Shown here one piece after another: positions 291 to 20,093 of a stretch of DNA of 33,187 nucleotides. Where the stretch lies: positions 1 to 33,187 of the forward strand of contig JABDKN010000300.1 of the NCBI GenBank assembly GCA_013002205.1. The letters run 5' to 3'. The stretch comes from Granulosicoccus sp. (GTDB taxonomy: Bacteria > Pseudomonadota > Gammaproteobacteria > Granulosicoccales > Granulosicoccaceae). A model generated the notes under the pieces. It was given only the letters and a program-made list of their open reading frames with translations. It was not told where the DNA came from and searched no databases. How positions within the stretch are numbered: the stretch's first letter is position 1; every line of letters begins with the position of its first letter. The position numbers and the translations under genes are program-made.

Positions 291-1808
291 TTACACGCCC
301 CAGGCAAAGTGTCGAGTATGCCCCGGCCAGGCCAAAGAGTTCGCTACAGTTTCGCAACGTTCGATATTTTCTGCAACATCCTGCAGAGAACGTATGTGCT
401 CGACGTGCCCGCCCAGGCGCACGTAGTCAGCCCTTCGCAGGGTGAATTCGATCGGCGCGACGAGCGCCGGCGTGGGTACATAACCAAACGCGTTGCGCGG
501 CATTTGCATGACATCCGCCATTACCGTAATACCACCGCCAGGCCAGACGTAGGCAGGCGCTCCACCGCAGGACACATAGGTCAATGACTGGCGTACAGAG
601 TGCGTGAGGGCAACCGGGTTTTCCGTGACACCGGCTCGCAGGGAACCGCCTGCCCCTCCCATGAACAATACCGAGCAGAGCGACGGTTCGCAATTTTCCG
701 CAATGCGTTCAACCGAGCCACGCAAGGTCTCCGGCAAGGGCGCGGGCACAGGTTTCAGTGCCTCGTCCAGGACGAAATACGCCCACTGCTCCCCGGTCGT
801 GGAGACCATCAGCAAACGCAACCCGGCATAGGCATCAGCCGGCTTGAATTCATCCAGAATACTCAAAGGGTCCTGAATGTCGGTGCCACCCCAACCCGAT
901 CCAGGACTGGCCACCTGAAAATAGCGCCCCGGCGTCGAGCGTCGACCCCTGATGCGGATACCGGTTGCCGGCAACCCCAGAAGCTTGCCAGCCTGATGCT
1001 CAGACAGCACACCGGTTATATGATCATCGACGACAACGACCTCGTCGACATGTGAGGCCCATTGCCGGGCAAACATGCCGATGGTCGCCGATCCACACCC
1101 GACCCGCATCAGTTTTTCCCGAACGCCATCGACCACCGGCGCCATTCCTGCCTGTACGGTAAGCGCCGCACCATCGTCAATAGTCATGTCAACTGCATCA
1201 CGGTTGCATAGCGCCAGCAATGCCTCGCAGGTGATACGACCCTCTTTTCTAGTCCCGCCGGTCAGGTGATTGACCCCGCCCAGCGAGAGCATCTGCGAGC
1301 CGTACTCGCCCGTCATCACATGACCGATGGCCTCTCCCCGGACTCTGACCGTTGCCTGCTCCGGTCCGATATGACGGTCGGTGTCGATCTTTACCTTGGT
1401 GCCGCAGTAGCTGAATATGCCTTCAGTGACGACCGTCACCATGTCAACGTCAGCGTATTGCTGACTGACGATAAAAGGGGCAGGCTTGTAATCCGGGTAG
1501 GTTGTACCGGCGCCAATTGCCGTAACGAATGTCTGCCGACCACCCAGAATATTACCATCCCAGGCCGGGGGCAGATCCCCAGTCGATTCCGGCGGTTCCT
1601 CCCCTGCAAGAAGAAAGGGTACAGCCATCGCCTCTTCACCCTCGGCACGCTGCAAAATGGTAAACGGGTCGACGCGAACCAGTTCACCACCCTCGTTGGC
1701 ATACCGATCACACGCCCCGCTTCGACCCTCCTTGATGTAGCACAGTACCGGGCATGCATCACACCGGATCTTGCCCCCTTCATCCTGTTCAACCGTGAAT
1801 CTGACCAT
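291..1808 (-). CDS. 6-hydroxynicotinate reductase homologue (ferredoxin-dependent ring reductase)
   Basis: The 505-residue protein resembles E. barkeri 6-hydroxynicotinate reductase (Hnr), an iron-sulfur enzyme that reduces 6-hydroxynicotinate to 1,4,5,6-tetrahydro-6-oxonicotinate with reduced ferredoxin. The length fits the roughly 55-kDa subunit reported there. Visible features are an N-terminal cluster motif (C16-x2-C19-x3-C23-x9-C33), several further conserved Cys, and Gly-rich stretches near residues 385-395 and 420. It starts 2 nt after the stop of the upstream molybdenum subunit, with GGGGAG about 10 nt before the ATG, so it is the last gene of the leftward operon and translationally linked to the hydroxylase. 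No ferredoxin gene is present, so the electron donor must come from elsewhere. Family assignment is good; the true substrate could be another pyridone carboxylate. Confidence 0.82.
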   Translation of the reverse strand: MVRFTVEQDEGGKIRCDACPVLCYIKEGRSGACDRYANEGGELVRVDPFTILQRAEGEEAMAVPFLLAGEEPPESTGDLPPAWDGNILGGRQTFVTAIGAGTTYPDYKPAPFIVSQQYADVDMVTVVTEGIFSYCGTKVKIDTDRHIGPEQATVRVRGEAIGHVMTGEYGSQMLSLGGVNHLTGGTRKEGRITCEALLALCNRDAVDMTIDDGAALTVQAGMAPVVDGVREKLMRVGCGSATIGMFARQWASHVDEVVVVDDHITGVLSEHQAGKLLGLPATGIRIRGRRSTPGRYFQVASPGSGWGGTDIQDPLSILDEFKPADAYAGLRLLMVSTTGEQWAYFVLDEALKPVPAPLPETLRGSVERIAENCEPSLCSVLFMGGAGGSLRAGVTENPVALTHSVRQSLTYVSCGGAPAYVWPGGGITVMADVMQMPRNAFGYVPTPALVAPIEFTLRRADYVRLGGHVEHIRSLQDVAENIERCETVANSLAWPGHTRHFAWGV

Positions 1809-1810
1809 GA

Positions 1811-4648
1811 TCAGTTGGCTCCCCGGCCCGTGTTGATGGCCGACAGTATTCTTTCCGGTGTCGCCGGTACTGACCGGATACGAGCGCCGGATGCATGAGC
1901 GATAGCATTGAGTACCGCTGGTGCGGTTGGAATCAGTACGTGTTCTCCCAGTCCCTTGGCGCCGAATGGACCATGCGGATCCGGCACTTCCACGATCACA
2001 GTGTCAACGGGCGGAATATCGCCTATGGTGGGGATGAGATAATCGTGCAGATTTTCCGTGCGTGCAGGAATGAACTCCTCCATCAACGCAAGCCCGACCC
2101 CCTGGGCAACACCACCGTGTATCTGCCCTTCGACAAGATTCGGATTGATTGCACGGCCCACGTCATGGGCAGCGGTCACGCGATCGAGGGTGACTGTCCC
2201 CAGCCTGGTGTCGACATCCAGCGATACCATCTGTGCAGCATATCCGTACAGTGCATAGGGTTCACCCTGGCCATTTTCGTCCAAGGGCCTGGTTGGCGGA
2301 TCGTAGGACCCTTCAGCCATGAAGACGTAACCCAGATCATTTGCCGGCAGGTCAGACAGGCTGATCGATGCCGTGTCGGGCTGATCGCGATTGACGGTGA
2401 GCGAGGCACCGGCAATTTCCAACTGCGTTATCGTGGTGCAGTTGGTATGCCTGGCAATCATTGCGCGCAGTGCCAGCGCGGACAGGCGGGCGGCATTCCC
2501 GGAGACGAAGGTCTGCCGGGATGCCGAGGTCTTGCCGGCATCGGGCGTCAGAGTCGAATCCGGATCTATCAGGGTGATCGCCTCCACGGGCACACCCAGA
2601 GTGTCAGCAAATATCTGCGCAATCACGGTGTTGGAACCCTGTCCGATATCCACGGCCCCCTGGTGCAGACAGACTACACCGTCGGCACGAATGCCCGAGC
2701 GGATAGTGGATGGATTGGGCAACGATGTGTTGCCACAGCCATACCAGCCACTGGCAAGCCCGACCCCGCGACGCAGCGGCGAGCCACTGGCGCGAGCGCT
2801 TTCGTTGAACTGGCCGGCGTCACGCAAGGCCTGTTGCCAGGGTATCCGGAGTGCATCCAGGCAGGCGCGAATACCCACGGAAGACTCGAATCGCTGACCG
2901 GTGACGGTGCGTTGGCCGTTGTCCAGCGCATTGAGAAACCGGAACTCGAGTCTGTCCATACCGGATGCCTCAGCGAGTTCATCGAACAGCGACTCCTGGG
3001 CAATGGCTGCCTGAGGCACGCCAAAACCGCGAAATGCCCCCGCCGGTGCACTGTGTGTGTAGACACCGACGGTGCGCGCAGAATAGTCAGGCGTGTAGTA
3101 AGGTCCGGATGCGTGTATGGGCACACGGTTGGCCACGGTCGGGCCCCAGGATGCGTAGGCGCCGGTATTGAATACACCGTCAAAGCGAAATCCGCACACC
3201 CGACCTGCCTCGTCAATACCGATTTCAACCTGCATATGCGCGGGATGTCGCTTGGTCGTTGACTGCATGGACTCCTGCCGGGTGAAGGCAATGCGCACAG
3301 GCACTCCGAGCTTCCACGCGGCCAGGGCCACGTAGGGTTGAAACGACAGATCGAGCTTGGAGCCGAATCCACCCCCTACCGAGCTCGGAACGATGCGCAG
3401 GGCAGACGGCTCCATGTCCATGATCCGTGCAAGACTGTCCCGGTTCATGTAAGGCGCCTGGGTACAGCCGTGTATCTCCAGTGTGTCTCCCACGCGACGG
3501 GCAAAACCGGCTTCAGGCTCGATATAGGCGTGCTCGATGAACCCGGTGGTAAAGGTTGCGCTGACACGACTGACGGCTCTCTCAAGGGATGCAGTGGCAT
3601 CGCCGCACTGCACCCTGCCTTCGCACAGGACATTGCGGGCAGCGTGCTCATGTAACTGGCATGCGCCATCCTGCTGAGCCTCGAAAGGATCCAGTAATGC
3701 TGGAAGCTCGTTCCACACGATGGGAAAGTCCTCTGGCAACAGCGCCTCGACCTTGTCGGCACAGCCGATGATCGCGGCCACCACTTCACCCCTGAAACGG
3801 GTATGACGCTGGGCAAATACAGGCTGGTCGATGAACGGCGGGATGACACCGAAGCGATTCTCACCGGGAATGTCACTGGCACTCAGTACGCAATCGATGC
3901 CCGGATGCTGTTCGACGAAGGCCTGCAGGTCACCGAGTTCAAAGCTGGCGTGATGATAGGGCGAGCGCAGCAACCTGCACAACCGGGCATCGGCAGGCGC
4001 GACGTCGTCACCGAAGGTATCCGTTCCCGACACCTTCGGCCAGCCATCCAGCCGGGTTATCGACACGCCCACGGAAGGCTGCGCGGCGCTCTGCTGCGCC
4101 CGAATCGCGGGTGGCCCGTCTGCCAGTGGTGACTGCATGGATTGGGTAGCCTGCATGACGGCGCGGATTATCTTGCGATAGCCGGTACATCGACAGAGCA
4201 CGCCACCCAGTGCATCCTTCACCGCTTGTTCCGAAGGCTGCGGCGACTGTCTCAGCAGGGCAACGGCCGCGATCAGCATGCCCGGTGTGCAGATGCCACA
4301 CTGCGCCGCCCCGCAGCTCAGAAACGAACGTTGCAGTTGTTGCATCAGTTCATCTGACGCACCCAGGCCGCGCAGGGTGTCAACCTGCTTGCCGGCAACC
4401 TGACCGACGGCAGTCAGGCAGGCACACACGGCCTTGCCATCGACCAGTACCGTACAGGCACCGCAATCGCCCGCATTGCAGCCGATCTTCACATCGCGCT
4501 GATCACAGTGATCGCGCAGCACAGAGGACAGCCGCTGAGCAGGTGAACCACAGGCGTCGACCTGCGCACCGTTACAGGTAAAGCGTATCGGCTGCGCAGC
4601 CCCGATGGAAGGCGTGGACTCGAACAGGGATGGTTCCAACGGCGTCAC
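1811..4648 (-). CDS. Fused [2Fe-2S]/molybdenum subunit of a xanthine dehydrogenase-family hydroxylase (nicotinate dehydrogenase-like)
   Basis: The 945-residue protein joins two normally separate subunits. Residues about 20-165 hold two [2Fe-2S] clusters: a plant-type set C57, C62, C65, C77 and a second set C117, C120, C152, C154. From about residue 195 it is a molybdopterin-cytosine-dinucleotide hydroxylase domain with GGGFGSK, AFRGFGVPQ and, near the C-terminus, GAKGLGE with the probable catalytic Glu902. Such enzymes insert a water-derived oxygen next to a ring nitrogen. The next genes encode a hydroxynicotinate-reductase homologue (2 nt away) and the FAD subunit (4-nt overlap), so C6 hydroxylation of a pyridine carboxylate is the likely role. 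The layout resembles E. coli XdhD with separate YgfM, not the four-subunit E. barkeri nicotinate dehydrogenase. No XdhC-type insertion chaperone is in the window. Confidence 0.85.
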   Translation of the reverse strand: MTPLEPSLFESTPSIGAAQPIRFTCNGAQVDACGSPAQRLSSVLRDHCDQRDVKIGCNAGDCGACTVLVDGKAVCACLTAVGQVAGKQVDTLRGLGASDELMQQLQRSFLSCGAAQCGICTPGMLIAAVALLRQSPQPSEQAVKDALGGVLCRCTGYRKIIRAVMQATQSMQSPLADGPPAIRAQQSAAQPSVGVSITRLDGWPKVSGTDTFGDDVAPADARLCRLLRSPYHHASFELGDLQAFVEQHPGIDCVLSASDIPGENRFGVIPPFIDQPVFAQRHTRFRGEVVAAIIGCADKVEALLPEDFPIVWNELPALLDPFEAQQDGACQLHEHAARNVLCEGRVQCGDATASLERAVSRVSATFTTGFIEHAYIEPEAGFARRVGDTLEIHGCTQAPYMNRDSLARIMDMEPSALRIVPSSVGGGFGSKLDLSFQPYVALAAWKLGVPVRIAFTRQESMQSTTKRHPAHMQVEIGIDEAGRVCGFRFDGVFNTGAYASWGPTVANRVPIHASGPYYTPDYSARTVGVYTHSAPAGAFRGFGVPQAAIAQESLFDELAEASGMDRLEFRFLNALDNGQRTVTGQRFESSVGIRACLDALRIPWQQALRDAGQFNESARASGSPLRRGVGLASGWYGCGNTSLPNPSTIRSGIRADGVVCLHQGAVDIGQGSNTVIAQIFADTLGVPVEAITLIDPDSTLTPDAGKTSASRQTFVSGNAARLSALALRAMIARHTNCTTITQLEIAGASLTVNRDQPDTASISLSDLPANDLGYVFMAEGSYDPPTRPLDENGQGEPYALYGYAAQMVSLDVDTRLGTVTLDRVTAAHDVGRAINPNLVEGQIHGGVAQGVGLALMEEFIPARTENLHDYLIPTIGDIPPVDTVIVEVPDPHGPFGAKGLGEHVLIPTAPAVLNAIAHASGARIRSVPATPERILSAINTGRGAN

Positions 4649-5535
4649 GTGTCAACCTCGGTGTCATCGCATTGAGCAGGCTGTCGCCTTCCGTGCAGCA
4701 AGGTGTGCAAGCCAGAGGCGAGCAATCGGCCGATCATCTGCCCGGCCGCGATCAGGCGATAGTCCGCCGACCCGCGGACATCACTGAGCGGATTCAACCC
4801 GGACAGTAGTGCGGGTGTCACCAGCGACACCAGATCATCCTGGATGGATTGACCCAGCAAAACGTGTTCAAGCTTGCGCAAGCGCGTGGCCACCGCTGAG
4901 CACGCACCCACCGAAATGCGCACCGAGACCAGTCTGTCCTGTTCATCCGCTTCCAGCGTGATGCAGGCCATGACGATGGAGATGACCAGGTAGCGCCGTG
5001 CTCCGAGTTTACTGAATCCACTGATTGCATGGTCACTGATCGACGGCACGTTTATGGCGATCATCAGCTCATCGCTGGCCAGTGCAGTGGATCGGGGTGC
5101 AAGTATGAACTGATCCAGCGGCAGAATGCGAGTGCCGCGAACCGATGCAAGTTCTACCGAGGCATCCAGGCACAGCAATGGCGGCACGCCATCGGCAGCC
5201 GGAGATGCATTGCACAGGTTTCCTGCCAGTGTTGCAGCATTCTGGATCTGCACCGAGCCTACTTCCCGGGCGGCTGCCTTCAATCCGTCAAAGGCAGGAG
5301 GCAGTGGCTCGTTGAGGATATCAGTCCAGGTGCTGAGTGCTCCGAAACGCCATCCACCAGCAGTTTTCTCCACCCCCTGCAACCCTGCGATTCGGGTGAC
5401 ATCCAGCACGCGATCCGGTGCAGGCGCATCGCGCAGGGCAGGATAGAAATCGGTACCCCCGGCAAGAACCGGAATCGCCGATCGAGAGAGCTCTTCCAGT
5501 GCTGAGGAAAGCGAACGTAACTGACGATTACTCAA
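4645..5535 (-). CDS. FAD-binding subunit of the molybdenum hydroxylase (CoxM/XdhB family)
   Basis: The 296-residue protein carries the FAD_binding_5 signatures LAGGTDFYP (residues 24-32) and TLAGNLCNASPAADG (near 102-116), which hold the flavin diphosphate and ring. It should pass electrons from the [2Fe-2S] clusters of the fused subunit to an external acceptor. Its stop overlaps the start of that subunit by 4 nt (ATGA), so the two are made together in near-equal amounts. The only plausible start is TTG at 5535, with AGGTGG just upstream; no ATG gives a full N-terminus, and conserved sequence begins within about 20 residues. An 80-nt gap with a small hairpin separates it from the upstream LivF gene. 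Confidence 0.83.
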   Translation of the reverse strand: MSNRQLRSLSSALEELSRSAIPVLAGGTDFYPALRDAPAPDRVLDVTRIAGLQGVEKTAGGWRFGALSTWTDILNEPLPPAFDGLKAAAREVGSVQIQNAATLAGNLCNASPAADGVPPLLCLDASVELASVRGTRILPLDQFILAPRSTALASDELMIAINVPSISDHAISGFSKLGARRYLVISIVMACITLEADEQDRLVSVRISVGACSAVATRLRKLEHVLLGQSIQDDLVSLVTPALLSGLNPLSDVRGSADYRLIAAGQMIGRLLASGLHTLLHGRRQPAQCDDTEVDT

Positions 5536-5615: not shown

Positions 5616-6317
5616 TCAAACCGACAGATAGGCATCACGAATCTCCGGCTGCGCTTCCAGCTCGGCGAAGCTGCCATCGTACTTCTTCAAGCCGCCTTCG
5701 ATGATAACCGCCCGGTCCGATACGATTCTGGCAAAGTGAAGATTCTGCTCGGACAGCAGCACCGGCAAGCCTTCAGCCTTGAGTTTCAGGATTGTCTGCG
5801 CCATCTGTTCGACGATCACCGGTGCGATTCCTTCACTGGGTTCATCCAGCAGCAGCAGCCTGGGATTGCCCATGAGGGTCCGGGCAATCGACAGCATCTG
5901 CTGCTCACCGCCGGACAGGGCTTTGCCGCGATTGTTGCGGCGCTCGGCCAGATTCGGAAACAGGTCAAAGAGTATTTCCTCTGTCCATTCGAACACACCC
6001 TCCCGCGGCGGCTGCCTGCCTACTTCCAGGTTTTCACTGATGGTCAGGTCGGTAAAGATACGTCGCTCCTCCGGCACATAACCGATACCCAGCTTGGCTA
6101 CTCGATGCGTTGGCAACCGGGTCAGGGACTCTCCCTGAAAACTCACGCTGCCACTGTCCGGCCTGACCAGTTGCATGATCGTTTTCACCGTGGTGGTCTT
6201 GCCGGCTCCGTTTCTGCCCAGCAGGGAGACGACTTCCCCTGCCTGAATGGAAAAGCTCAGATCGCGCAGAATATGCGCCTTGCCGTAGAAGCTGTTCACT
6301 CCCGACAGTTCAAGCAT
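5616..6317 (-). CDS. ABC transporter ATP-binding protein, LivF type
   Basis: The 233-residue protein is one of two ATPases of a branched-chain-amino-acid-type (HAAT family) importer. It shows Walker A GRNGAGKTT (residues 34-42), the ABC signature LSGGEQQ, Walker B LLLLDEP and an H-loop replaced by the family's EQN segment. The frame is open upstream, but ATG at 6317 gives the classic LivF N-terminus (MLELSGVN), has GAG 8 nt upstream, and overlaps the LivG stop by 8 nt. A second ATG two codons earlier (6323) is possible. In this operon the importer most likely takes up the catabolic substrate rather than amino acids. Confidence 0.88.
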   Translation of the reverse strand: MLELSGVNSFYGKAHILRDLSFSIQAGEVVSLLGRNGAGKTTTVKTIMQLVRPDSGSVSFQGESLTRLPTHRVAKLGIGYVPEERRIFTDLTISENLEVGRQPPREGVFEWTEEILFDLFPNLAERRNNRGKALSGGEQQMLSIARTLMGNPRLLLLDEPSEGIAPVIVEQMAQTILKLKAEGLPVLLSEQNLHFARIVSDRAVIIEGGLKKYDGSFAELEAQPEIRDAYLSV

Positions 6318-7098
6318 GCCCATCACTCGCTGCGAAAACACTGCCACCACCCAGGTAGACTTCCTGTACCAACGGGTCGTTACGAATCTCTTCGACTGAT
6401 CCATTGGCAATGAGTTCGCCTCGATTGAGTACCATGATCCGGTGAGCGTGTGTGAAGACCACGTCCATGTCGTGTTCGGTGAACAGCACACTGACGTTTC
6501 GTTCACTGACGATATCGGCGGTCAGCTGCATCAATCCAATACGTTCTCTGGGCGCCATGCCGGCCGTGGGTTCGTCCATCAGCAGCAGGGTCGGTTCGTG
6601 ACACAAGGCGATCGCCAGCTCCAGGCGCTTCAGATCGCCATAGGCCAGAATCGCACAGGCACGTTCTGCCTGCTCCGGCATGCCCACCAGTTCCAGCAAT
6701 CGCATGGCCTGATCCCGATACAGGTGAGTGGCGTAGGGACGTAGGGAATACAGCCGTCGGTGATGTGAGATCAGTGCCATCTGGATGTTCTCGATGACGG
6801 TCATGGACTGATAGGTACCGGTAATCTGGAAGGTGCGTCCGACACCTTTGCGCCAGATACGTCTCGGCTGTCGACCGGTAATCTTCTCACCGTGCAGATA
6901 GACGTTACCGCGCGTGGGTTTCAATTGCCCCATCAGCATGTTGAAGCAGGTGGTCTTGCCCGCACCGTTAGGTCCGATCAAGGCAAGCAGTTCTCCCCTG
7001 GCTACCTCGAAGCTGACATCGTTGAGCGCGTGGATACCACCGAAGGATTTGCTCAGATCGATGACCGACAGCACTGCGGTGTCCTCGTTTCCCGTCAT
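6310..7098 (-). CDS. ABC transporter ATP-binding protein, LivG type
   Basis: The 262-residue protein is the second ATPase of the importer. Walker A GPNGAGKTT lies near residues 42-50, followed by the LivG-typical segment GRTFQITGTYQSMTVIEN, Walker B LLLMDEPTAG and H-loop FTEHDMD. The ABC signature is unusual: LAYGDLKRLELA instead of the common LSYGEQRRLEIA, which keeps the central Gly but changes flanking residues. It overlaps the permease stop by 4 nt (ATGA) and the LivF start by 8 nt, so the permease and both ATPases are translationally coupled. It should pair with LivF under the fused permease. Confidence 0.9.
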   Translation of the reverse strand: MTGNEDTAVLSVIDLSKSFGGIHALNDVSFEVARGELLALIGPNGAGKTTCFNMLMGQLKPTRGNVYLHGEKITGRQPRRIWRKGVGRTFQITGTYQSMTVIENIQMALISHHRRLYSLRPYATHLYRDQAMRLLELVGMPEQAERACAILAYGDLKRLELAIALCHEPTLLLMDEPTAGMAPRERIGLMQLTADIVSERNVSVLFTEHDMDVVFTHAHRIMVLNRGELIANGSVEEIRNDPLVQEVYLGGGSVFAASDGHA

Positions 7099-8972
7099 TG
7101 ACGGCTCTCCGCAGCGACAGTCTCAGGCTCACTGGGTTGGCGGTAACGATCAAACAGTTTGCGAAAGCTGCCGACGATGCCATACGGTGCCAGCACGACT
7201 ACCGCGATAATCAGCAGACCCAGGGCCAGTCGCCAGTATTCGAAGCGTGTCAGGTAGTCCTTGACCAGTTCAAGCGTTGCCGCACCCACCACACCGCCCG
7301 AGAGGGTCTTGACCCCACCCAGGAATACCACGATCAATCCATCGAAGGATTTGGCGATTTCCATCTCGTTGGGAAAGACACTGCCTTTGGAAAACACGAA
7401 CAGAGCACCGGCAACTCCGGCCATGGCACCGGCCAGGGTGAAGGCCATCCACTGTATGCGCTTGGTGTTGATGCCTGTGGCCTCAGCCTGTCGCTGCGAA
7501 TCCCGGGACGCCCGCAGCGCGTAACCAAACGGTGAATGCGCAATGTGCCGCAGCAGAATGATACCGCCCACCCCGACGATCGCCGTGAAATAGAAATAGC
7601 TGTTGGCTTCGGACAGCCAACCGGCGGGCCAGACGTCGACCAGGCCATCATCGCCTCCGGTGAATTCGTCCCACTGAAACACCAGCGACCAGAGCAATTG
7701 AGCCATGGCAAGTGTCAGCATCGCGAAATAGACGCCAGTCAGACGCAGACATAGCCAGCCGATGATAACCGCCAGTAGCCCGGCTCCCAGAGGTGCCAAC
7801 AGAAACGCCAGTTCCATCGGTGCCTCAGCATGAATGACCAGCAAACCGGCAACATAGGCACCACCACCAAAGAAGGCTGCGTGACCGAACGAGACCAGCC
7901 CGCCCAGCCCGAGCAGAAAATGCAGGCTGGCCGCAAACAGACAGAATATGATGATGTCCGTGATGAGTATCACCAGAAAGTGAGAACCGGTCATGGGTAA
8001 GGCAAGCAGCAGCACCAGCAGCACACCCACCATCATTCGGGCACGACCACTGGCAGGCTTGATGGGTCGCTCCGGCTCTCCGACCTGACCATGTTCGCCG
8101 ACCACCTCTTCGCGTCCGAGCAACCCGTAAGGGCGTATCGTCAGCACGACTGCCATGACGACGAACATCAATACCAGTGTGCTTTGAGGCAGATAGGACA
8201 CCCCGAATACGTTCAGCACGGAGATGAGCACGGCCGCGATGTAGGCTCCGGGCAACGAGCCCATGCCGCCTATGACCACCACCACGAATATCGCCGCCAG
8301 GATATTGAAGTCCATGAGCAGATCCGCTCCGCCCTTGGGTAATTGAATGGCACCTCCCAGACCAGCCATACCGGCTCCGAGAAAAAATACGCCGGTGAAC
8401 AACCAGGCCTGGTTGACACCCAGTGCAGCGACCATTTCCCTGTCCTGCGTAGCCGCTCTGACCAGTACACCGAGTCGCGTCCTGGAGATCAGGTACCACA
8501 GCGCAAACAGGACAAAGGGTGTCAGGGCGATCAGTGCAAGATCATAAGTGGGCACCGGTTCGTCCATGATGCGTACGATGCCTTTCAGCCCAGGAGCCCG
8601 CGGGCCGAGTACATCTTCGGCCCCCCAGATCATCAGCGTCAGATCCTGAATCACCAGGATGACGCCGAAGGTTGCCACGAGCTGGAAAAGTTCCGGCGCT
8701 CTGTAGACAGGCCTGAGTACCAGCATCTCGACGATCACACCGATGAGTCCGACGATCAGGCCGGTCAACAGCACCGATGCCCAGAATCCGACGGCACCGG
8801 GCAACACCTGCATCAATGAATACCCGACAAATGCCCCCAGCATGTAGAACGAACCGTGGGCGAAATTGACGATGCGGGTGACACCGAAAATAAGCGACAG
8901 GCCTGAGGCCACCAGGAACAAGGTGGCAGCGTTGGCCAGCCCGGTCAGAAGCTGGGCGATGAACAGTCCCAT
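7095..8972 (-). CDS. Fused LivH-LivM permease of the ABC importer
   Basis: The 625-residue membrane protein combines both permease halves of a Liv-type importer. Residues 1 to about 290 look like LivH (N-terminal LTGLANAATLFLVASGLSL and a SGLSLIFGVTRIVNFAHG-type motif). After a short hydrophilic linker near 290-310, the remainder looks like LivM (GGLVSFGHAAFFGGGAYV, then SLRASRDS-like coupling segment ALRASRDSQRQAEATG). Each half has many hydrophobic segments. LivH and LivM are usually separate, so fusion fixes a 1:1 ratio. The ATG at 8972 has no clear Shine-Dalgarno and lies 2 nt after one arm of an 8-bp inverted repeat (8975-9024), so its translation may be held down relative to the binding-protein gene upstream. 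Confidence 0.87.
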   Translation of the reverse strand: MGLFIAQLLTGLANAATLFLVASGLSLIFGVTRIVNFAHGSFYMLGAFVGYSLMQVLPGAVGFWASVLLTGLIVGLIGVIVEMLVLRPVYRAPELFQLVATFGVILVIQDLTLMIWGAEDVLGPRAPGLKGIVRIMDEPVPTYDLALIALTPFVLFALWYLISRTRLGVLVRAATQDREMVAALGVNQAWLFTGVFFLGAGMAGLGGAIQLPKGGADLLMDFNILAAIFVVVVIGGMGSLPGAYIAAVLISVLNVFGVSYLPQSTLVLMFVVMAVVLTIRPYGLLGREEVVGEHGQVGEPERPIKPASGRARMMVGVLLVLLLALPMTGSHFLVILITDIIIFCLFAASLHFLLGLGGLVSFGHAAFFGGGAYVAGLLVIHAEAPMELAFLLAPLGAGLLAVIIGWLCLRLTGVYFAMLTLAMAQLLWSLVFQWDEFTGGDDGLVDVWPAGWLSEANSYFYFTAIVGVGGIILLRHIAHSPFGYALRASRDSQRQAEATGINTKRIQWMAFTLAGAMAGVAGALFVFSKGSVFPNEMEIAKSFDGLIVVFLGGVKTLSGGVVGAATLELVKDYLTRFEYWRLALGLLIIAVVVLAPYGIVGSFRKLFDRYRQPSEPETVAAESRQ

Positions 8973-9035: not shown

Positions 9036-10259
9036 TCATTGACTGGCGGGGCGCATACGGGCGACCTCTTCATCGGACGGAAGATAGTTGGCGCCATCGC
9101 GGTAGGTCCAGTCCACCATGACCCCGCCACCGTCCCGTACGGTGGTGGTGCCGACGAATGCGCCCATGGTCGACTGGTGATCCTGTTCGCGGTAGGTAAT
9201 GAGGCCGACCGGTGTGTCCACTTCAAGACCAATGAATGCCTGGCGCAGTTTTTCAGTCTCGAGCGATCCTGCCCGACCGATGGCCGCGGCGATCGACTGC
9301 GCAGTCATGTACCCCACCAGTGACCCGATCTTGGGGCTTTCGTCGTAGGCCGCCAGATAGGCGTCGACGAATACCCTGTTGGGCCCATCCTCGAAGTCAT
9401 ACCAGGGGTAGCCGGTGACTACCCAGCCTTCGGGCGCCTCATCTGCCAATGGTTCCAGGTACTCCGGCTCACCGGTGAGCAGGCCATACACCTGACGACC
9501 CTCGAAAAGACCGCGGGTCGTACCCTCCCGGACAAACTTGGCCAGATCACCGCCGAAGGTCACGTTATAGATGGCATCGGGCTTGGCCCGTTCCAGCGCC
9601 TGTACTTCTGCACCTGCGTCGATCTTGAACACCGCAGGCCATTGCTCGGTAACGAACTCCACCTCGGGCTTCAGGGCCAGCAGGGCTTTCTTGAAGGCCG
9701 CCACTGCGTCCTTGCCATAGGCGTAGTTGGGTGCAATGGTGGCGTACTTGATCGCATCTGTCTTTGCCGCCTGCTCTGCGAGCATGGCGGCCTGCATGTA
9801 AGTGGACGAACGAAGTCGAAACGTGTAGTCGTTGCCCTTCTCCCAGACCAGGCCATCGGCCAGAGGTTCTGCGGCCAGGTAGATCACCTTCTTCTCGGCG
9901 GCAAACGAGGACAGCGCAAGACCGACGTTACTCAGGATGGAGCCGGTGATCATGGCTACCTCTTCGCGATTGACCAGTTCTTCGGCAATCTTGATGGCCT
10001 CACCCGGCTTGCCCTGATCATCCCGGTAGATGAATTCCAGCGGCTGGCCGATGACCCCACCCGCTTCGTTGATTTCAGACAGCGCCAGCTCCACACCGTT
10101 CTTGTAGGGCTCGGCAAACGCGGCCATGCGCTTGTAATGATTGATCTCGCCAATCCTGATGGCATCTGCCGCCATGGCCGTGGTGCTGATCCCGACAAGT
10201 ACGGATACCGCCAGGCTTGCCACAGTCGAGATCATTGCCAGCTTGCTCGATTCTTTCAT
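9036..10259 (-). CDS. Periplasmic solute-binding protein of the Liv-type importer
   Basis: The 407-residue protein has a Sec signal peptide (charged start MKESSK, hydrophobic core, probable cleavage after TTAMA at residue 31) and then the family opening ADAIRIGEI. The mature protein has the Peripla_BP_6 pattern: NGVELALSEINEAGGVIGQPLEF near residues 54-76 and an S-x-N-V-G-LALSSFAAEKKV segment near 108-125. It should capture the substrate in the periplasm and deliver it to the LivH-LivM permease. Start choice is firm: GGAGAG lies a few nt before the ATG. It is preceded by a 96-nt gap after the Rieske gene that contains a stable UUCG hairpin. The ligand cannot be read from sequence; this family also binds aromatic acids. 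Confidence 0.9.
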   Translation of the reverse strand: MKESSKLAMISTVASLAVSVLVGISTTAMAADAIRIGEINHYKRMAAFAEPYKNGVELALSEINEAGGVIGQPLEFIYRDDQGKPGEAIKIAEELVNREEVAMITGSILSNVGLALSSFAAEKKVIYLAAEPLADGLVWEKGNDYTFRLRSSTYMQAAMLAEQAAKTDAIKYATIAPNYAYGKDAVAAFKKALLALKPEVEFVTEQWPAVFKIDAGAEVQALERAKPDAIYNVTFGGDLAKFVREGTTRGLFEGRQVYGLLTGEPEYLEPLADEAPEGWVVTGYPWYDFEDGPNRVFVDAYLAAYDESPKIGSLVGYMTAQSIAAAIGRAGSLETEKLRQAFIGLEVDTPVGLITYREQDHQSTMGAFVGTTTVRDGGGVMVDWTYRDGANYLPSDEEVARMRPASQ

Positions 10260-10355: not shown

Positions 10356-11378
10356 TCAGGCAATTTCAGATTCAATCAGGGATTGTATACGTCGTCTGTA
10401 CACTGCGGGTCCCTTGTCTATGGCCAGCCGGATCGGTCGCCGTGGTTGCGGCCGTTTTTCCGCCTCGTCGATCGCCTGCAGGATGGCCTTGTCCTCATCG
10501 AACGCAGTGCGGAACAATGCATCCATCTGTGTTGAGGCCTGCTCATCGCCCAGTGCAGCATTGCGCAGGTGCATCCAGCGGTCAATGGTGTAGTGCTCAT
10601 TGACGGGTGTCAGAAAATGCAGGGCAAAAATCCGCACCCCCTCATCTCGCTGATCTTCAACCAGCCCAGCCGCTACATCCGCACTCCCGAAATCGATCAC
10701 GGCCGTACACGGAAGATGCAGGTAATAGTAATGCCAACGATCCACGTTGCCGGAAAAACCACCAAACTTCTGGAAAAAGCCGACTGGCGGTGCATTCCTG
10801 ATCCAGCGCCAGGCCACCAGTACCTCACCATCGGTATCCACCTGTACCGGCACATCCTCACTGGCGGCGTTTCCCAGGGTTGTCGGGTGAACGAAACTCA
10901 CGTGCGCCGGGTCCACCAGGTTTTCCGCCACATTCAGGTAATGGGATTGCAGGTGCAGCGCATCACCCTGATGTGCATGCCACGCCGGGCTGCCAAACTG
11001 CGGCAGATCGAAAATGTCATCGATGCTGGCCTTGCCAGGGTCACCCATCCAGACAAAGACGATATTATTTTTTTCGTGGACAGGGTAAGCCGAGACATAG
11101 GCTGTCGACGGAATGTTGTCCTGACCCGGGATACGCACGCATTGCCCCGCGGCGTTGAAGGTCATGCCGTGATACCCGCACTGGACATCATCTCCCACCC
11201 GCTTGCCTCTGGACAGCGGCAACAGGCGATGGGGACAGCGATCCTCCAGCGCTATCACCTTGCCGACAGAATTGCGGTACATGACCAGCGCCTGCTCGAT
11301 AATGACCACGGGTGTCAGTGCCTGCGAGAATTCTGCAGACCATCCGGCAACGTACCAGGCGTTTCTGACATAGCTCAT
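10356..11378 (-). CDS. Rieske non-haem iron oxygenase, VanA-type (demethylase-like)
   Basis: The 340-residue protein has an N-terminal Rieske centre, C48-x-H50 and C67-x2-H70 (CPHR and CGYHG), and a C-terminal mononuclear iron domain with D156-x2-H159-x4-H164 (DPAHVSFVH) and an acidic segment AFDEDKAIL near residue 300. This layout is that of vanillate O-demethylase-type oxygenases, which often remove O- or N-methyl groups or hydroxylate rings using O2. No reductase or ferredoxin partner is encoded nearby. It overlaps the preceding DUF1185 gene by 4 nt. In a pyridine-carboxylate island an N-demethylating role on a methylated substrate is attractive, but direct hydroxylation is equally possible; the substrate is unknown. 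It shows the pathway needs oxygen even though the ring-opening steps are reductive. Confidence 0.85.
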   Translation of the reverse strand: MSYVRNAWYVAGWSAEFSQALTPVVIIEQALVMYRNSVGKVIALEDRCPHRLLPLSRGKRVGDDVQCGYHGMTFNAAGQCVRIPGQDNIPSTAYVSAYPVHEKNNIVFVWMGDPGKASIDDIFDLPQFGSPAWHAHQGDALHLQSHYLNVAENLVDPAHVSFVHPTTLGNAASEDVPVQVDTDGEVLVAWRWIRNAPPVGFFQKFGGFSGNVDRWHYYYLHLPCTAVIDFGSADVAAGLVEDQRDEGVRIFALHFLTPVNEHYTIDRWMHLRNAALGDEQASTQMDALFRTAFDEDKAILQAIDEAEKRPQPRRPIRLAIDKGPAVYRRRIQSLIESEIA

Positions 11379-11962
11379 CTGAGTCCATCCCTGCCTTCGG
11401 CTGCTTCGTGAGTCAAACCACCCACCCTGGGCAAGGGCCTGCCTGAATCGGTGACGGCCACCGCGACCATGATTTCATCGGCCCGCGGGGCATCATTCAC
11501 GCAAACCTCCATGCCATCGAAATGTGAGCGCACATACGCTGCATCCTTGTGCCCCAATGGTATATCCAGGACCTGCCCCATCGAACCCATCTTCTTGCTC
11601 GATGCCACCAGGGCTGCACCCTTGTGTACCGCTGCACGCAGTGGCTTGCCCAGGCGCGGGTGCAGGATGGCCGCCGCGTGTTCGAGTTCACCGTTTTCTC
11701 CCACCATGGCTGCTTTCCCGTAGCTTTGCGCCTGCGAGGGCTCGATGCCCAGCATCTTCACACATCGTTCACCGAGCAGGGCTCCCATCTCTTCGCCGAT
11801 GACCATCAGCGCTTCGAGATCCTCGACGTAACGCGACGCGTATGGGTTCTCGATGACAGCGACCGCGGCGGCCCGGCGGGTCGGCGGATCGATGCTCAGT
11901 CCCATCTCACGGTGAGTCTCATCCATGAAAGTGACCAGCTTGCGGATTCGTGCTGTCGTCAT
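11375..11962 (-). CDS. DUF1185 (AA_synth family, PF06684) protein, copy A
   Basis: The 195-residue protein belongs to the DUF1185/AA_synth family, known structurally as a chorismate-mutase-like fold but without an established reaction. Family stretches seen are AVIENPYASRYVEDL (near 35-49), YGKAAMVGENGELEHAAA, ASSKKMGSMGQVLDIPLGHK and the well-conserved YVRSHFDGMEV...ND block. It is clearly paralogous to the gene at 12902-13483; both share the YVRSHFD block and end EGRDGLR. It overlaps its neighbours by 4 nt on both sides, so it is tightly coupled to the UPF0280 and Rieske genes. The 'amino acid synthesis' label is historical; here it more likely handles a pathway intermediate or forms a hetero-oligomer with copy B. 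Confidence 0.8.
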   Translation of the reverse strand: MTTARIRKLVTFMDETHREMGLSIDPPTRRAAAVAVIENPYASRYVEDLEALMVIGEEMGALLGERCVKMLGIEPSQAQSYGKAAMVGENGELEHAAAILHPRLGKPLRAAVHKGAALVASSKKMGSMGQVLDIPLGHKDAAYVRSHFDGMEVCVNDAPRADEIMVAVAVTDSGRPLPRVGGLTHEAAEGRDGLR

Positions 11963-12915
11963 GTTCCTATTCCCGGCAAGTGGGCTGGAGGAGTATCGGC
12001 AGGCCTGCCGACGATGGCTGTCTGGTCCTGCAGTGTCAGGTAGGCACCGGCTATCAGCCCGCGGTCGAGCAATCGGCGCGCTGCCAGTATGCCAGCGCGC
12101 AGCGCCTGATCTTTTTCTGCGGCGGACAGAGCGGCCACTGCCACCGTAACGGGTCGATCACCCAGGTCGGAGTCCGCTGCCAGCGAACACGCGGGAATCC
12201 GTTCGATCTTTTCCGGGGCATGCACATTCGTGGCATTGGCAATGAGTGTGGCCGCTACATCCGCCTCAGCCGATGTGCGGGCAATGACGGTGACTGCATC
12301 TGCAATGCCCAGGGAATGGCTGCGACCCTGCCAACCGCTGGTGGCGACACCGTTGAGTCCGTCACCTGCCTGTAGCGTAATGACATCCGGATGCCGGACT
12401 GAGGCCGGCGACGCGCAGATACCAATGCGATACGAGGTACCGGCCGACAGAAACAGCGCGATGTCACCACCGTTGTTGACCTGTGCCCGCTCTATCTGCC
12501 GGCCGTCCAGTAACGCAGCCAGTATGTGGTCGGCAACTGCACCTGCCACGGCAATCATCGGTGTCACGGTCTCGTGGCGGCAGGGCGCAGCGGCGGCAAA
12601 CATCCGCCTGGCTACACCTCCTCGAAATTCCGCGGCCATGCTGCCGGGGAGCAGAGGCCGCCTCAACAGCGCAAGCTGACTGGTCAGAGTCTCCAGAACG
12701 CTTGCAAAGGCACTACCTGCCTGACGGTAGGCTGCCTGCACTTCCTGCAATTTCCCTTCGGCATGGATGATCAGATCGATGGGGCCGTGCTGCAGATGCA
12801 GACGATCACTGGCGTGCCGATCACGGATTACGTCGACCCTGTGCCCCGCCTGACTGCCGGCGCACAGCAACCAGGCCTGGGGCCCGGTGTCGCGAGCGGC
12901 TTCAGCGCAAGCCAT
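11959..12915 (-). CDS. UPF0280 family protein (ApbE-like fold), function unknown
   Basis: The 318-residue protein shows the UPF0280 hallmarks: DLIIHAEGKLQEV near residues 47-59, PMIAVAGAVADHI near 119-131, VNNGGDIALFL near 145-155, then ATSGWQGRSHSLGIADAVTV and ATLIANAT. The family is distantly related to ApbE flavin transferases, but no reaction is established. The N-terminal 35 or so residues and a C-terminal extension of about 70 residues make it longer than typical members (around 250). It overlaps copy A by 4 nt and copy B by 14 nt, so the three genes form a DUF1185-UPF0280-DUF1185 cassette. ATG at 12915 is chosen for that overlap; a GTG at codon 27 is an alternative. Confidence 0.78.
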   Translation of the reverse strand: MACAEAARDTGPQAWLLCAGSQAGHRVDVIRDRHASDRLHLQHGPIDLIIHAEGKLQEVQAAYRQAGSAFASVLETLTSQLALLRRPLLPGSMAAEFRGGVARRMFAAAAPCRHETVTPMIAVAGAVADHILAALLDGRQIERAQVNNGGDIALFLSAGTSYRIGICASPASVRHPDVITLQAGDGLNGVATSGWQGRSHSLGIADAVTVIARTSAEADVAATLIANATNVHAPEKIERIPACSLAADSDLGDRPVTVAVAALSAAEKDQALRAGILAARRLLDRGLIAGAYLTLQDQTAIVGRPADTPPAHLPGIGT

Positions 12916-13483
12916 CCCTACCTTCTATGGCATCAGCCTGCAAGCCGCCCACGCGCGCGTGGATACGCGGCCCGGATGTCATGACCAGGACCAGCAACAA
13001 TTCGTGCGCGCGGGGCGAATCATTGATGCCCACTTCCATGGCATCGAAGTGACTGCGCACATAGGACGCATTGATATGCGTGATGGGTACATCGAGTCGT
13101 GTTCCCGGGGCACCCACCTTCTTGGTCGAAGGCACGATTGCCCTGGCGTCACCAAGCAGTTCACGCATGGCATACCCACCCGGCACATGCCAGAGTGCAC
13201 CGTGCTCGATCTCCCCGGCACTACCGACGATCGCACCCTTACCATATCCCTGCACCCGATCGGCACCGCCAAGTACGTCGACAAGACGTCCGGCCATCTG
13301 CAGTCCGAGCGGCTTCAGATCGTCCATGAACCCTTCGATGTCCGCCACGTAGCGACCCGCAAAAGGATTGTGGATGACCGCCAGGGCAGCAGCACGAACC
13401 AGTGGATCGGGTGCCGGACTGCCACCTTCGTGGAAGATTTCCTCGACACTCAATCCCATCTTGCGGATGACAACATCGTGCAT
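12902..13483 (-). CDS. DUF1185 (AA_synth family) protein, copy B; first gene of the leftward operon
   Basis: This is the paralogue of the DUF1185 gene at 11375-11962 and the first gene of the operon. The open frame reaches further upstream to 13708, but ATG at 13483 matches the length of copy A (193 versus 195 residues), has GGAG 10 nt upstream, and lies downstream of a good promoter (13599-13626). Conserved stretches are AVIHNPFAGRYVADIEGF, QGYGKGAIVGSAGEIEHGA, STKKVGAPGTRLDVPITHI and YVRSHFDAMEV, ending EGRDGLR. It overlaps the UPF0280 gene by 14 nt. The two copies have diverged well beyond a recent duplication, so they may form a hetero-oligomer. Function is unknown. Confidence 0.8.
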   Translation of the reverse strand: MHDVVIRKMGLSVEEIFHEGGSPAPDPLVRAAALAVIHNPFAGRYVADIEGFMDDLKPLGLQMAGRLVDVLGGADRVQGYGKGAIVGSAGEIEHGALWHVPGGYAMRELLGDARAIVPSTKKVGAPGTRLDVPITHINASYVRSHFDAMEVGINDSPRAHELLLVLVMTSGPRIHARVGGLQADAIEGRDGLR

Positions 13484-13737: not shown

Positions 13738-14916
13738 ATGGCAGACACTCGGCAAAAACTGGTCATTCGTCATATCGGTCGAATCCTCTCCGGCAAGCTC
13801 GAATCACCACTGCTCGAGGGTGATTGCCTGGTAGCCATCGATGGGCGAATCAGTGCGATAGGTCATGCACGGCAGATGGATACCGATCAGGCAGACGTCA
13901 CCATCGACGCTGCCGATACCTGGCTCGCACCCGGATTGATCGACAGTCATGTTCATCCGGTCATCGGAGACTACACACCACGGCAGCAACAGATCCACTG
14001 GATTGATTCCTGCCTGCACGGCGGGGTGACCACCATGATCTCGGCTGGCGAGGTCCATGTGCCGGGCAGGCCTAAAGACATCGTGGGTCTCAAGGCCATG
14101 GCCATTGCCTCACAGCGCTGGTACGAGAACTTCCGTCCATCCGGTGTCAAAATGCATGCGGGAGCACCGGTGCTGGAAGAAGGCATGCTGGAGAGCGACT
14201 TCAGGGATCTGGCCGAGGCAGGAGTGAAATTGCTCGGGGAGGTGGGCCTGGGATCGGTCAAGGCCGGAGAAACGGCCGCGCAGATGGTCAAATGGGCCAG
14301 AAAGTACGGCATTCAGTCCACCATTCATACCGGTGGTCCCTCGATACCGGGTTCAGGCCTGATCGACAAGGACATCGTGCTGGAGGCGGACGCGGACATC
14401 ATCGGTCATATCAACGGTGGCCACACCGCCTTGCCTGACGATCAGATACGCTGCCTGTGCGAAGGGTGTCGGCGCGGTATCGAGATCGTCCACAACGGCA
14501 ATGAGCGTGCTGGCCTGCTGGCCATGCGCACGGCCTTCGAGATCGAGCAGTCAGAACGTGTCATTCTCGGCACCGACTCACCCGCAGGTTCCGGTGTGCA
14601 ACCACTGGGAATACTGCGCCTGATCGCCATGCTCTCAAGCCTTGGCGATGTCCCAGCCGAGATAGCCTTTTGCTTCGCAACCGGCAATACGGCACGGATG
14701 CGCAAGCTGGATACAGGCATCATCGAAGTGGGAAAAGCTGCCGATTTCGTCATTCTGGATCAGGCGCAGCATTCGCCGGGGGCTGATATGCTGGACAGTA
14801 TCCGGCAGGGCAATCTGCCGGGCATCGGCATGACCATCATCGATGGCAAGGTCACCTCCACCCGCAGTCGTAATACGCCACCGGCCGCCCGATTGCCTTC
14901 CATCGTGGACACCTGA
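13738..14916 (+). CDS. Enamidase-type amidohydrolase (ring-opening hydrolase)
   Basis: The 392-residue protein is an amidohydrolase-superfamily enzyme close in length and motif order to E. barkeri enamidase (about 385 residues), which opens 1,4,5,6-tetrahydro-6-oxonicotinate to 2-formylglutarate and ammonia. Metal-site residues seen are H71-x-H73 (DSHVHP), Glu168 (GEVGLG) as probable bridging ligand in place of the usual carboxylated Lys, H197 (IHTGG), H224/H229 (IGHINGGHT) and D280 (GTDSPAG). The frame is open 70 codons upstream, but ATG at 13738 has AGAGG 8 nt before it and gives the normal length. It is divergent from the operon carrying the ring hydroxylase and reductase, which make its presumed substrate. 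Relatives include other cyclic-amide hydrolases, so exact substrate is inferred from context. Confidence 0.83.
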   Translation: MADTRQKLVIRHIGRILSGKLESPLLEGDCLVAIDGRISAIGHARQMDTDQADVTIDAADTWLAPGLIDSHVHPVIGDYTPRQQQIHWIDSCLHGGVTTMISAGEVHVPGRPKDIVGLKAMAIASQRWYENFRPSGVKMHAGAPVLEEGMLESDFRDLAEAGVKLLGEVGLGSVKAGETAAQMVKWARKYGIQSTIHTGGPSIPGSGLIDKDIVLEADADIIGHINGGHTALPDDQIRCLCEGCRRGIEIVHNGNERAGLLAMRTAFEIEQSERVILGTDSPAGSGVQPLGILRLIAMLSSLGDVPAEIAFCFATGNTARMRKLDTGIIEVGKAADFVILDQAQHSPGADMLDSIRQGNLPGIGMTIIDGKVTSTRSRNTPPAARLPSIVDT

Positions 14917-14979: not shown

Positions 14980-15009
14980 GGAGTGTCATCACGGGACTGC
15001 GGACTTGCC

Positions 15010-15936
15010 ATGATGTTCATCGATCCTCATGCACACATGATCTCACGTACCACCGAGGACTACCAGGCGATGGCCGCCTCGGGAGTGGTGGCAGTCATCG
15101 AGCCTGCCTTCTGGCTCGGTCAGCCACGCACCAGTGTCGGCAGTTACATCGACTATCTGTCCTCGATACTCGGATTCGAATGCTTCCGGGCTGGCCAGTT
15201 CGGTATCCGCCATTACTGCACCATCGGGCTCAACTCCAAGGAAGCCAATAACGAAGAACTGGCAGAGGCCGTGATGGATATACTGCCGCGTTTTGCGCTC
15301 AAGGAGGGGGTGGTAGCCATCGGCGAGATCGGTTACGACGAGCAGACCGAACTGGAAGATCGATATTTCCGGCAACAGCTGGAGCTGGCCAAAGAGCTGG
15401 AACTACCCGTCATGATACACACACCGCACCGTGACAAGAAAAGAGGCACCAGTCGTTCGATGGACGTCTGTGTCGAACACGGCATGGATCCGTCCATGGT
15501 GGTGATCGACCACAACAATGAAGAAACTGTTCGTGAAGTGCTGGATCGCGGATTCCATGCGGCATTCTCCATCTATCCGTCCACCAAGATGGGTAATGAA
15601 AGAATGGTCGGCATCCTGGCAGAGTATGGTGCAGAGCGCATCATCGTCGACTCCGCCTGTGACTGGGGAATTTCTGAGCCGCTGGGTGTTGCCAAAACTG
15701 CAAGACTGGCACTTGAGCGTGGCATACCCGAAGAAAGCGTTCGCCTGGCTTGCTACCAGAACGCACTGGACGCCTATTCCCAGAGCGGGCAGATGAAAGA
15801 AAGTGACTGGCTGGACCCGGTTCCCATCGATCAGCGAACCGTCTATGAAGGCAACAGCATTCTGCGCGGAGGGCGTGAACCACTGGTGCAGAATCAGCAG
15901 CCCTCACGCGACCCTGACCATCTGATTATCGAGTAA
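15010..15936 (+). CDS. TatD-family metal-dependent hydrolase
   Basis: The 308-residue TIM-barrel protein has the TatD metal-site order: H7-x-H9 (DPHAHM), E106 (GEIGYDE), H137 (IHTPHRDK), H168 (VIDHNNEE) and D214 (IVDSACDWG). It belongs to the COG1099-like branch, which as far as I recall also contains EboB, rather than to housekeeping TatD DNases. ATG at 15010 is chosen because conserved sequence starts at once; a second ATG follows directly and a longer frame begins at 14983. It is 93 nt downstream of the enamidase gene on the same strand. A role hydrolysing a ring-opening product or a side product is plausible but not shown. Its last 11 nt overlap the end of larB on the other strand. Confidence 0.8.
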   Translation: MMFIDPHAHMISRTTEDYQAMAASGVVAVIEPAFWLGQPRTSVGSYIDYLSSILGFECFRAGQFGIRHYCTIGLNSKEANNEELAEAVMDILPRFALKEGVVAIGEIGYDEQTELEDRYFRQQLELAKELELPVMIHTPHRDKKRGTSRSMDVCVEHGMDPSMVVIDHNNEETVREVLDRGFHAAFSIYPSTKMGNERMVGILAEYGAERIIVDSACDWGISEPLGVAKTARLALERGIPEESVRLACYQNALDAYSQSGQMKESDWLDPVPIDQRTVYEGNSILRGGREPLVQNQQPSRDPDHLIIE

Positions 15937-18703: not shown

Positions 18704-18750
18704 TACCGGACACGCCGAGCGACACCCTGTGCGGAAGGGACCATGGCGCC

Positions 18751-20052: not shown

Positions 20053-20093
20053 GGAACTGTTGCTCCTGTGTAAGCCGCGGCCTGAGGTGCCAT

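Follow-up and report, generated by a model that had tools for sequence, protein, structure and literature searches.

A DUF1185-UPF0280-DUF1185 gene cassette in a nicotinate cluster of Granulosicoccus sp.: association with 6-hydroxynicotinate reductase and with ring opening

Introduction

The 33,187-nucleotide (nt) stretch of Granulosicoccus sp. analyzed here (assembly GCA_013002205.1, contig JABDKN010000300.1; referred to as the window) carries a cassette in which two DUF1185 genes, DUF1185a and DUF1185b, flank a UPF0280 (COG2122) gene. Both families are widespread and have no known reaction. The locus raises the question of what these three proteins do in a run of genes whose last member encodes 6-hydroxynicotinate reductase (HNR). 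A preliminary description of the DNA proposed that the trio performs an essential early or accessory step, perhaps as a hetero-oligomer of the two DUF1185 proteins. Its statement that none of the three has a known reaction holds, with the qualification that COG2122 has a known genetic role in homocysteine formation (PMC5764234; publications are cited by PMC number).

The trio is not a single functional unit, and the second DUF1185 copy near UPF0280 is optional. Our preferred reading, with a probability of about 0.5, is that the cassette consists of two modules: UPF0280 would mature HNR, DUF1185b would serve ring opening or its product, and DUF1185a would be optional.

Results

UPF0280 accompanies 6-hydroxynicotinate reductase

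Two genome sets, 57 relatives and 398 genomes of Pseudomonadota, were surveyed, both including the genome of the window. Among the relatives, HNR was found in 27 and UPF0280 in 30, and 27/27 HNR genomes had UPF0280. The three UPF0280 relatives without an HNR match (G004, G022, and G032) have a genome completeness of 74-84%, and their contigs break off close to UPF0280. In the Pseudomonadota set, HNR was detected in 32 genomes and UPF0280 in the identical 32. The two genes are 15-549 base pairs (bp) apart in 31/32 genomes and 10.2 kilobases (kb) apart in the window. HNR was present in 26 plasmid records, all included in the 27 with UPF0280. The sole UPF0280 plasmid without HNR is Hydrogenophaga pBPS33-1 (L191), where UPF0280 lies directly behind IS1071. 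Between the two, a 5'-truncated HNR remnant persists, recognizable by its similarity to the HNR 3' end (tblastn, E 6e-6). This plasmid also showed repeated units with IS1071, UPF0280, MarR, Rieske, reductase, and tricarboxylate-transporter binding-protein genes.

A further sample consisted of 80 loci (L072-L151), the best 80 of at least 569 found with the UPF0280 alignment, and favors loci closely related to the query. Its Granulosicoccus loci L072-L075 lie on contigs already present among the relatives (as L041, L051, L036, and L046), which makes the two sets overlap. Plain clustering of open reading frames (ORFs) in these GC-rich loci gave many antisense frames, and a codon-position filter was used instead. 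HNR was seen in 78 of the 80 loci; L074 ends too early, and no HNR was found within the stretch of L142.

The protein is named HNR after plasmid-borne relatives with this annotation (64-70% identity) and after a cluster from the literature (PMC3511419). No convincing Pfam or NCBIfam match was obtained for the protein, and a weak match to Pfam GCV_T_C appeared in 16/20 HNR sequences (best E 0.00035). A sequence search of the PDB gave nothing trustworthy (best E 0.15). The fold search with the HNR model (pLDDT 78, pTM 0.67) yielded no clear match, the best being a GcvT C-domain at Z 4.1, which is not proof of a new fold.

DUF1185b follows the enamidase

The two DUF1185 proteins of the window matched PF06684 (AA_synth) at E 3.3e-70 and 1.7e-71, with full-length scores of 239.7 and 235.6 bits against a Pfam cut-off of 27. 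They share 45% identity, and no further DUF1185 was found in the genome. A tree of 175 DUF1185 sequences contained clade A with 85 tips (support 0.99), clade B with 76 tips (0.95), and 14 others. The earlier impression of two diverged paralogues is right, and the paralogues form two deep clades. Thirty-nine positions, many of them charged, are common to both clades at ≥95%, and four fixed switches separate the clades. The four-histidine cluster of BB2672 (His93, 98, 144, and 174) is complete in DUF1185a (H94, H99, H145, and H175). Three of these histidines are kept in DUF1185b (H95, H101, and H147), with L177 at the fourth position, which is mostly Leu (93%) throughout clade B. The two are anciently diverged and apparently intact proteins.

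Some DUF1185 was held by 31/32 HNR genomes, and by 28 further genomes without HNR. Because HNR loci without DUF1185 nearby exist, HNR seems not to need DUF1185, and the candidate role of DUF1185 in serving HNR was set aside. The loci without DUF1185 led to the hydantoinase A/B genes. Within the fetched stretches of the 80 loci, 22 showed an enamidase-like amidohydrolase (Ena) and 23 showed hydantoinase A and/or B (for example L109, L117, and L147); no locus showed both, and the 35 that showed neither include some cut short. Clade B was present in 22/22 Ena loci versus 2/23 hydantoinase loci (Fisher 7e-11), and clade A in 14/22 versus 15/23 (p = 1.0); these p values ignore kinship, which inflates significance. 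DUF1185a was rejected as an Ena partner because there was no association. Among the relatives, DUF1185b was present in 26/27 stretches with Ena and UPF0280, and the single exception, L062, is cut by a contig end within UPF0280. Likewise, 16/16 plasmid records with HNR and Ena carried a DUF1185b-like copy (69-80% identity). Three other HNR plasmids (Pleomorphomonas, Fuscovulum, and Methylobacterium) had an a-like copy only and no Ena. The pairing of DUF1185b with enamidase, as opposed to hydantoinase A/B largely without DUF1185b, points this protein at one chemical step.

An Ena-like amidohydrolase (37-44% identity) is also encoded on nine further plasmids that lack HNR. In 5/9 (Shinella, Thermomicrobium, Agrobacterium vitis, Mesorhizobium WSM4875, and Mariluticola), one of them from another phylum, DUF1185 lies directly upstream of the Ena-like gene, at spacings from a 4-nt overlap up to 85 bp and with no UPF0280 on the record. 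The DUF1185 proteins of the HNR-less plasmids are ~39-46% identical to DUF1185b where listed. Succinate-semialdehyde dehydrogenase is annotated nearby in two of the five. TgnF, a DUF1185-type homologue, is said to stimulate TgnE-dependent succinic semialdehyde oxidation (PMC7913881), which together with the adjacency to Ena-like genes suggests that DUF1185 acts at the hydrolytic ring-opening step or immediately after it. Both observations would also suit non-catalytic activators or scaffolds of Ena or of a semialdehyde dehydrogenase, with TgnF as the model. However, charged residues are strongly conserved in both clades, which fits an enzyme, and attempts to see a TgnF-like effect for HcdD were unsuccessful (PMC7913881), so that a purely supporting role appears rather unlikely.

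Fold and family of UPF0280

UPF0280 scored 325.7 bits against NF003322 (cut-off 290). Its model (pLDDT 87) matched DVU1097 (2o34) at Z 19.8 and the flavin transferases ApbE, Ftp, and FmnB at Z 13.8-15.9, which bears out the label ApbE-like in the preliminary description. An H257G mutant structure was among the matches, and the next fold group, urate oxidase, followed at Z 7.8. The UPF0280 profile also matched 2o34 (E 4.5e-13).

The HNR of Eubacterium barkeri reportedly carries covalently bound flavin. In ApbE, the catalytic histidine (His257) lies in a YSHxIDPRTG loop, and the client motif is of the DxxSGA[ST] type. A classical flavin transferase linking flavin mononucleotide to a Ser or Thr of HNR would agree with the fold, with the NGGD, SG, and ADxxAT motifs kept in UPF0280, and with the strict pairing. 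However, the Pfam ApbE score of UPF0280 is 22.5, below the cut-off of 25.6. The YSHxIDPRTG loop seemingly has no counterpart in a weak alignment with one ApbE of the same genome (E 0.13), and the client motif was found in 0/96 HNR sequences. Membership of UPF0280 among the ApbE enzymes is therefore doubtful, and we consider transfer of this classical kind unlikely. Residue T242 of HNR was rejected as a candidate flavin site because 6 of 54 sequences have A there and the other 48 have T.

A second association of the family concerns DUF39 (PF01837), which was found in 0/299 Pseudomonadota genomes and in 6/149 genomes of a phylum taken to be Acidobacteriota. A UPF0280 ORF adjoins the DUF39 gene in 6/6 loci, on the same strand in five and convergent in one (L153). 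A genome search to widen the DUF39 set returned G365 alone. The core common to the HNR-side and DUF39-side UPF0280 proteins comprises RM, PM..VAG, GGD, S, G.S.S.G..D, AD..AT, and N. Homocysteine formation in Desulfovibrio needs DUF39, NIL/ferredoxin, and COG2122 (PMC5764234). In methanogens MA1715, a protein of the UPF0280 family, is described as handling sulfur trafficking for L-ASST (DUF39) (PMC12068725). By extension, UPF0280 might load persulfide or iron-sulfur (Fe-S) sulfur on HNR, which keeps eight cysteines at ≥95% of 54 sequences. However, the residues common to the two UPF0280 branches include no cysteine and nicotinate reduction has no sulfur substrate, which makes sulfur delivery to HNR improbable.

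The look-alike segments VDVVTTGTF..C and DMVTVVTEGIF..C prompted a search for homology between HNR and DUF39, which was rejected at this sensitivity. PF01837 gave no match to 20 HNR sequences at E 10. In hmmsearch, HNR scored no better than unrelated ORFs, its best member standing at index 101; in hhalign, DUF39 came 35th among 80 targets, beneath many column-shuffled controls. In a PDB search with one DUF39 sequence, the 60 of 128 matches listed all hit the ferredoxin end, and no trustworthy match to the catalytic part was seen. No relative of DUF39, HNR, or DUF1185 was confirmed on viral contigs.

Recurrence of the trio

The preliminary description of three overlapping ORFs followed by a Rieske gene was confirmed in its coordinates, overlaps, and families. 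On the minus strand, DUF1185a overlaps UPF0280 by 14 nt, UPF0280 overlaps DUF1185b by 4 nt, and DUF1185b overlaps the Rieske gene by 4 nt. The order DUF1185a-UPF0280-DUF1185b was found in 16/29 UPF0280-bearing stretches of relatives (3/29 end at contig ends) and, since it recurs, is not due to chance. The 14-nt overlap recurs in 9/17 cases (the 16 ordered stretches plus one cut stretch), with start codons in the relatives picked by script. Prediction and conservation are both poor over the first 35 residues of UPF0280, which makes the position of its start codon, and with it the 14-nt overlap, less certain than the other features. Elsewhere, HNR is mostly the leading gene, directly followed by UPF0280. 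The place of the trio at the operon head therefore says little on the order of action. A role accessory to the nicotinate route is retained.

Of the 32 HNR genomes, 8 have two DUF1185 genes within 3 kb of UPF0280, 23 have a single one, and 1 has none. The preliminary description had made its proposal depend on how often the trio co-occurs elsewhere. The outcome is mixed: UPF0280 and HNR were together throughout the sample, and the full trio was present in a quarter of it. By clade, 20 of the 80 loci contain both copies, 34 contain only A, 16 only B, and 10 neither. Both clades were present in 25/29 stretches of relatives holding any clade-A or clade-B copy. DUF1185b without DUF1185a beside Ena was seen in 8/80 loci as well as in L054 and L056. 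The family members BB2672 (3byq) and SPO0826 (2qtp) were reported as hexamers, BB2672 as a trimer of dimers and SPO0826 on its own in solution (PMC2954203); SPO0826 is nearest in sequence to DUF1185b, judged by eye of the alignment. A hetero-oligomer of the two DUF1185 proteins, possibly with UPF0280, for one early or accessory step would suit the overlapping genes in one run, the loci with both paralogues, and the BB2672 assembly, but is not required and is very unlikely given the 60/80 loci with a only, b only, or none, the rarity of two copies near UPF0280, the loci with b alone beside Ena, the occurrence of UPF0280 without any DUF1185 nearby, the self-assembly of SPO0826, and the invariant residues kept by both paralogues.

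Discussion

The two-module reading assigns UPF0280 the role of a dedicated maturation or assembly partner of HNR. Through its ApbE-type fold it would most likely bind a nucleotide or flavin plus a metal ion and place the HNR cofactor, and it may serve DUF39 in a similar way in homocysteine synthesis. DUF1185b would act with Ena at the hydrolytic opening of the tetrahydro-oxonicotinate ring, or on the product. As a conjecture from gene context, we take it to isomerize or decarboxylate 2-formylglutarate (or the corresponding enamine) and to hand a semialdehyde to a dehydrogenase. DUF1185a would be optional and not tied to Ena. The genes of the cassette would be co-transcribed. The gene structure, the co-occurrence, the fold of UPF0280, the clades, and the associations are observations, and co-transcription and all reactions are inferred from them.

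Several points weigh against these assignments. Associations are not reactions, and the apparent lack of the ApbE loop described above counts against UPF0280 as well. No sequence homology between HNR and DUF39 is detectable, so that a shared client type is unproven. DUF1185 occurs in many other contexts (388 plasmid records). Independent switches of the ring-opening enzyme are few, three on an HNR tree of 40 loci and six to seven on a UPF0280 tree of 45. Seven HNR plasmids have a b-like copy (59-75%) and no Ena at E 1e-20, and DUF1185b is present in 12/80 loci with neither Ena nor hydantoinase seen in the stretch. An aldehyde-dehydrogenase gene family is not specific to Ena, being found in 2 Ena, 3 hydantoinase, and 1 other of the 80 loci. 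Finally, 4/9 plasmids with an Ena-like gene and no HNR (Prescottella, two Rhodococcus, and Haloarcula) have no DUF1185 annotated beside it in a plasmid gene table that is incomplete; in Rhodococcus USK13, DUF1185 lies about 23 kb from the Ena-like gene.

A broader version of the proposal is possible, if doubtful. UPF0280/COG2122 might be a new class of ApbE-fold maturation enzyme with a rebuilt active site, which installs the same cofactor or modification in the sequence-unrelated, Fe-S-linked reductive enzymes HNR and DUF39. DUF1185 might be an unrecognized formyl-dicarboxylate (semialdehyde) branch enzyme that accompanies enamidase-type opening.

The cluster type itself is already known. Nicotinate-degradation clusters were described for Azorhizobium caulinodans, Bradyrhizobium, and strain SG-6C, the A. 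caulinodans route was reported to continue via glutarate, and two conserved unknowns in this cluster type were noted in 2012 (PMC3511419). In contrast to those clusters, the trio stands at the head here, HNR is last, a Rieske gene lies in between, and lar genes are located upstream. In its pathway, the system resembles the fermentation of E. barkeri, with reduction to tetrahydro-oxonicotinate and a bifunctional enamidase leading to 2-formylglutarate (for the ring-opening steps, see PMC9304392). It shares with the COG2122-DUF39 system (DVU1097) the UPF0280 family, the fold, the conserved core, and adjacency to one client, whereas the client here is HNR. ApbE, Ftp, and FmnB resemble UPF0280 in fold and in the NGG and AD..xT motifs and differ in the catalytic-His loop, apparently absent from UPF0280, and in the target motif missing from HNR. 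The DUF1185 proteins share family and conserved residues with BB2672 and SPO0826, and DUF1185b differs from BB2672 in its fourth histidine.

Among the papers listed by the literature searches made, none treats UPF0280 together with HNR, and neither the strict pairing, the link of UPF0280 through its family to DUF39, nor the swap of enamidase and hydantoinase was seen in them. Through the strict pairing, UPF0280 acquires one client in aerobic bacteria that are amenable to knock-outs and purification, and is tied to the role of its family beside DUF39 in homocysteine synthesis. Databases file DUF1185 under "amino acid synthesis", and the swap points DUF1185b to one chemical step instead. Reading the proteins as two helpers makes both roles testable.

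Gene run and neighboring features

The features of the run are listed in Table 1. HNR, a molybdenum (Mo) hydroxylase, and a ring-opening hydrolase, which together define an HNR-type nicotinate cluster, are all present in the window. The trio, the Rieske gene, the Liv-type ATP-binding cassette (ABC) transporter, the Mo hydroxylase, and HNR follow each other on one strand, and Ena is divergent. The Ena ORF is open from 13528, and relatives point to the ATG at 13738 as its start. The Mo hydroxylase is probably a nicotinate hydroxylase.

Table 1. Positions of the cassette and the associated genes in the window
Feature	Coordinates	Strand	Remarks
DUF1185a	12902..13483	-	PF06684 AA_synth, clade A; Bacillus-chorismate-mutase-like fold by homology
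UPF0280/COG2122 protein	11959..12915	-	ApbE fold; proposed maturation partner of HNR
DUF1185b	11375..11962	-	PF06684, clade B; tracks enamidase
Rieske/VanA_C oxygenase alpha subunit	10356..11378	-	Pfam
Liv-type substrate-binding protein	9036..10259	-	Pfam
Liv-type ABC permease fusion and two ATPases	5616..8972	-	Pfam, NCBIfam
Xanthine-dehydrogenase-type Mo hydroxylase, two genes	1811..5535	-	Flavin adenine dinucleotide (FAD) subunit 4645-5535; fused FeS/Mo subunit 1811-4648
6-Hydroxynicotinate reductase (HNR)	291..1808	-	Last gene of run; N-terminal CX2CX3CX9C; partner tracked by UPF0280
Enamidase-like amidohydrolase (Ena)	13738..14916	+	Divergent from trio

The VanA-type Rieske oxygenase could, as a guess, be an N-demethylase of trigonelline that supplies nicotinate. 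A Rieske gene also adjoins the UPF0280 remnant locus of Hydrogenophaga (L191), and in Sulfitobacter (L189) a gene annotated as aromatic ring-hydroxylating dioxygenase alpha comes after the cluster.

A ferredoxin-NADP-reductase-like gene recurred in 17/80 loci by clustering, with one member checked in Pfam (e.g., L096:18108-18968), and L189:3012-3818 is annotated as such a gene. It was absent among the 20 window proteins scanned with Pfam and NCBIfam. The encoded protein is a candidate electron donor for HNR.

Beside Ena, a TatD-like metal hydrolase is encoded at 14983-15936 (plus strand), which was seen in 4/40 stretches of relatives. The region 15926-20972 (minus strand) contains a complete nickel-pincer cofactor set of LarB, LarE, and LarC, all over their cut-offs. 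The LarA-like racemase with this set scored under the cut-offs of the LarA models tried. The lar set overlaps a gene for a 2-hydroxy-3-oxopropionate/hydroxyisobutyrate-type dehydrogenase, with a 2-(hydroxymethyl)glutarate-type intermediate as a possible substrate.

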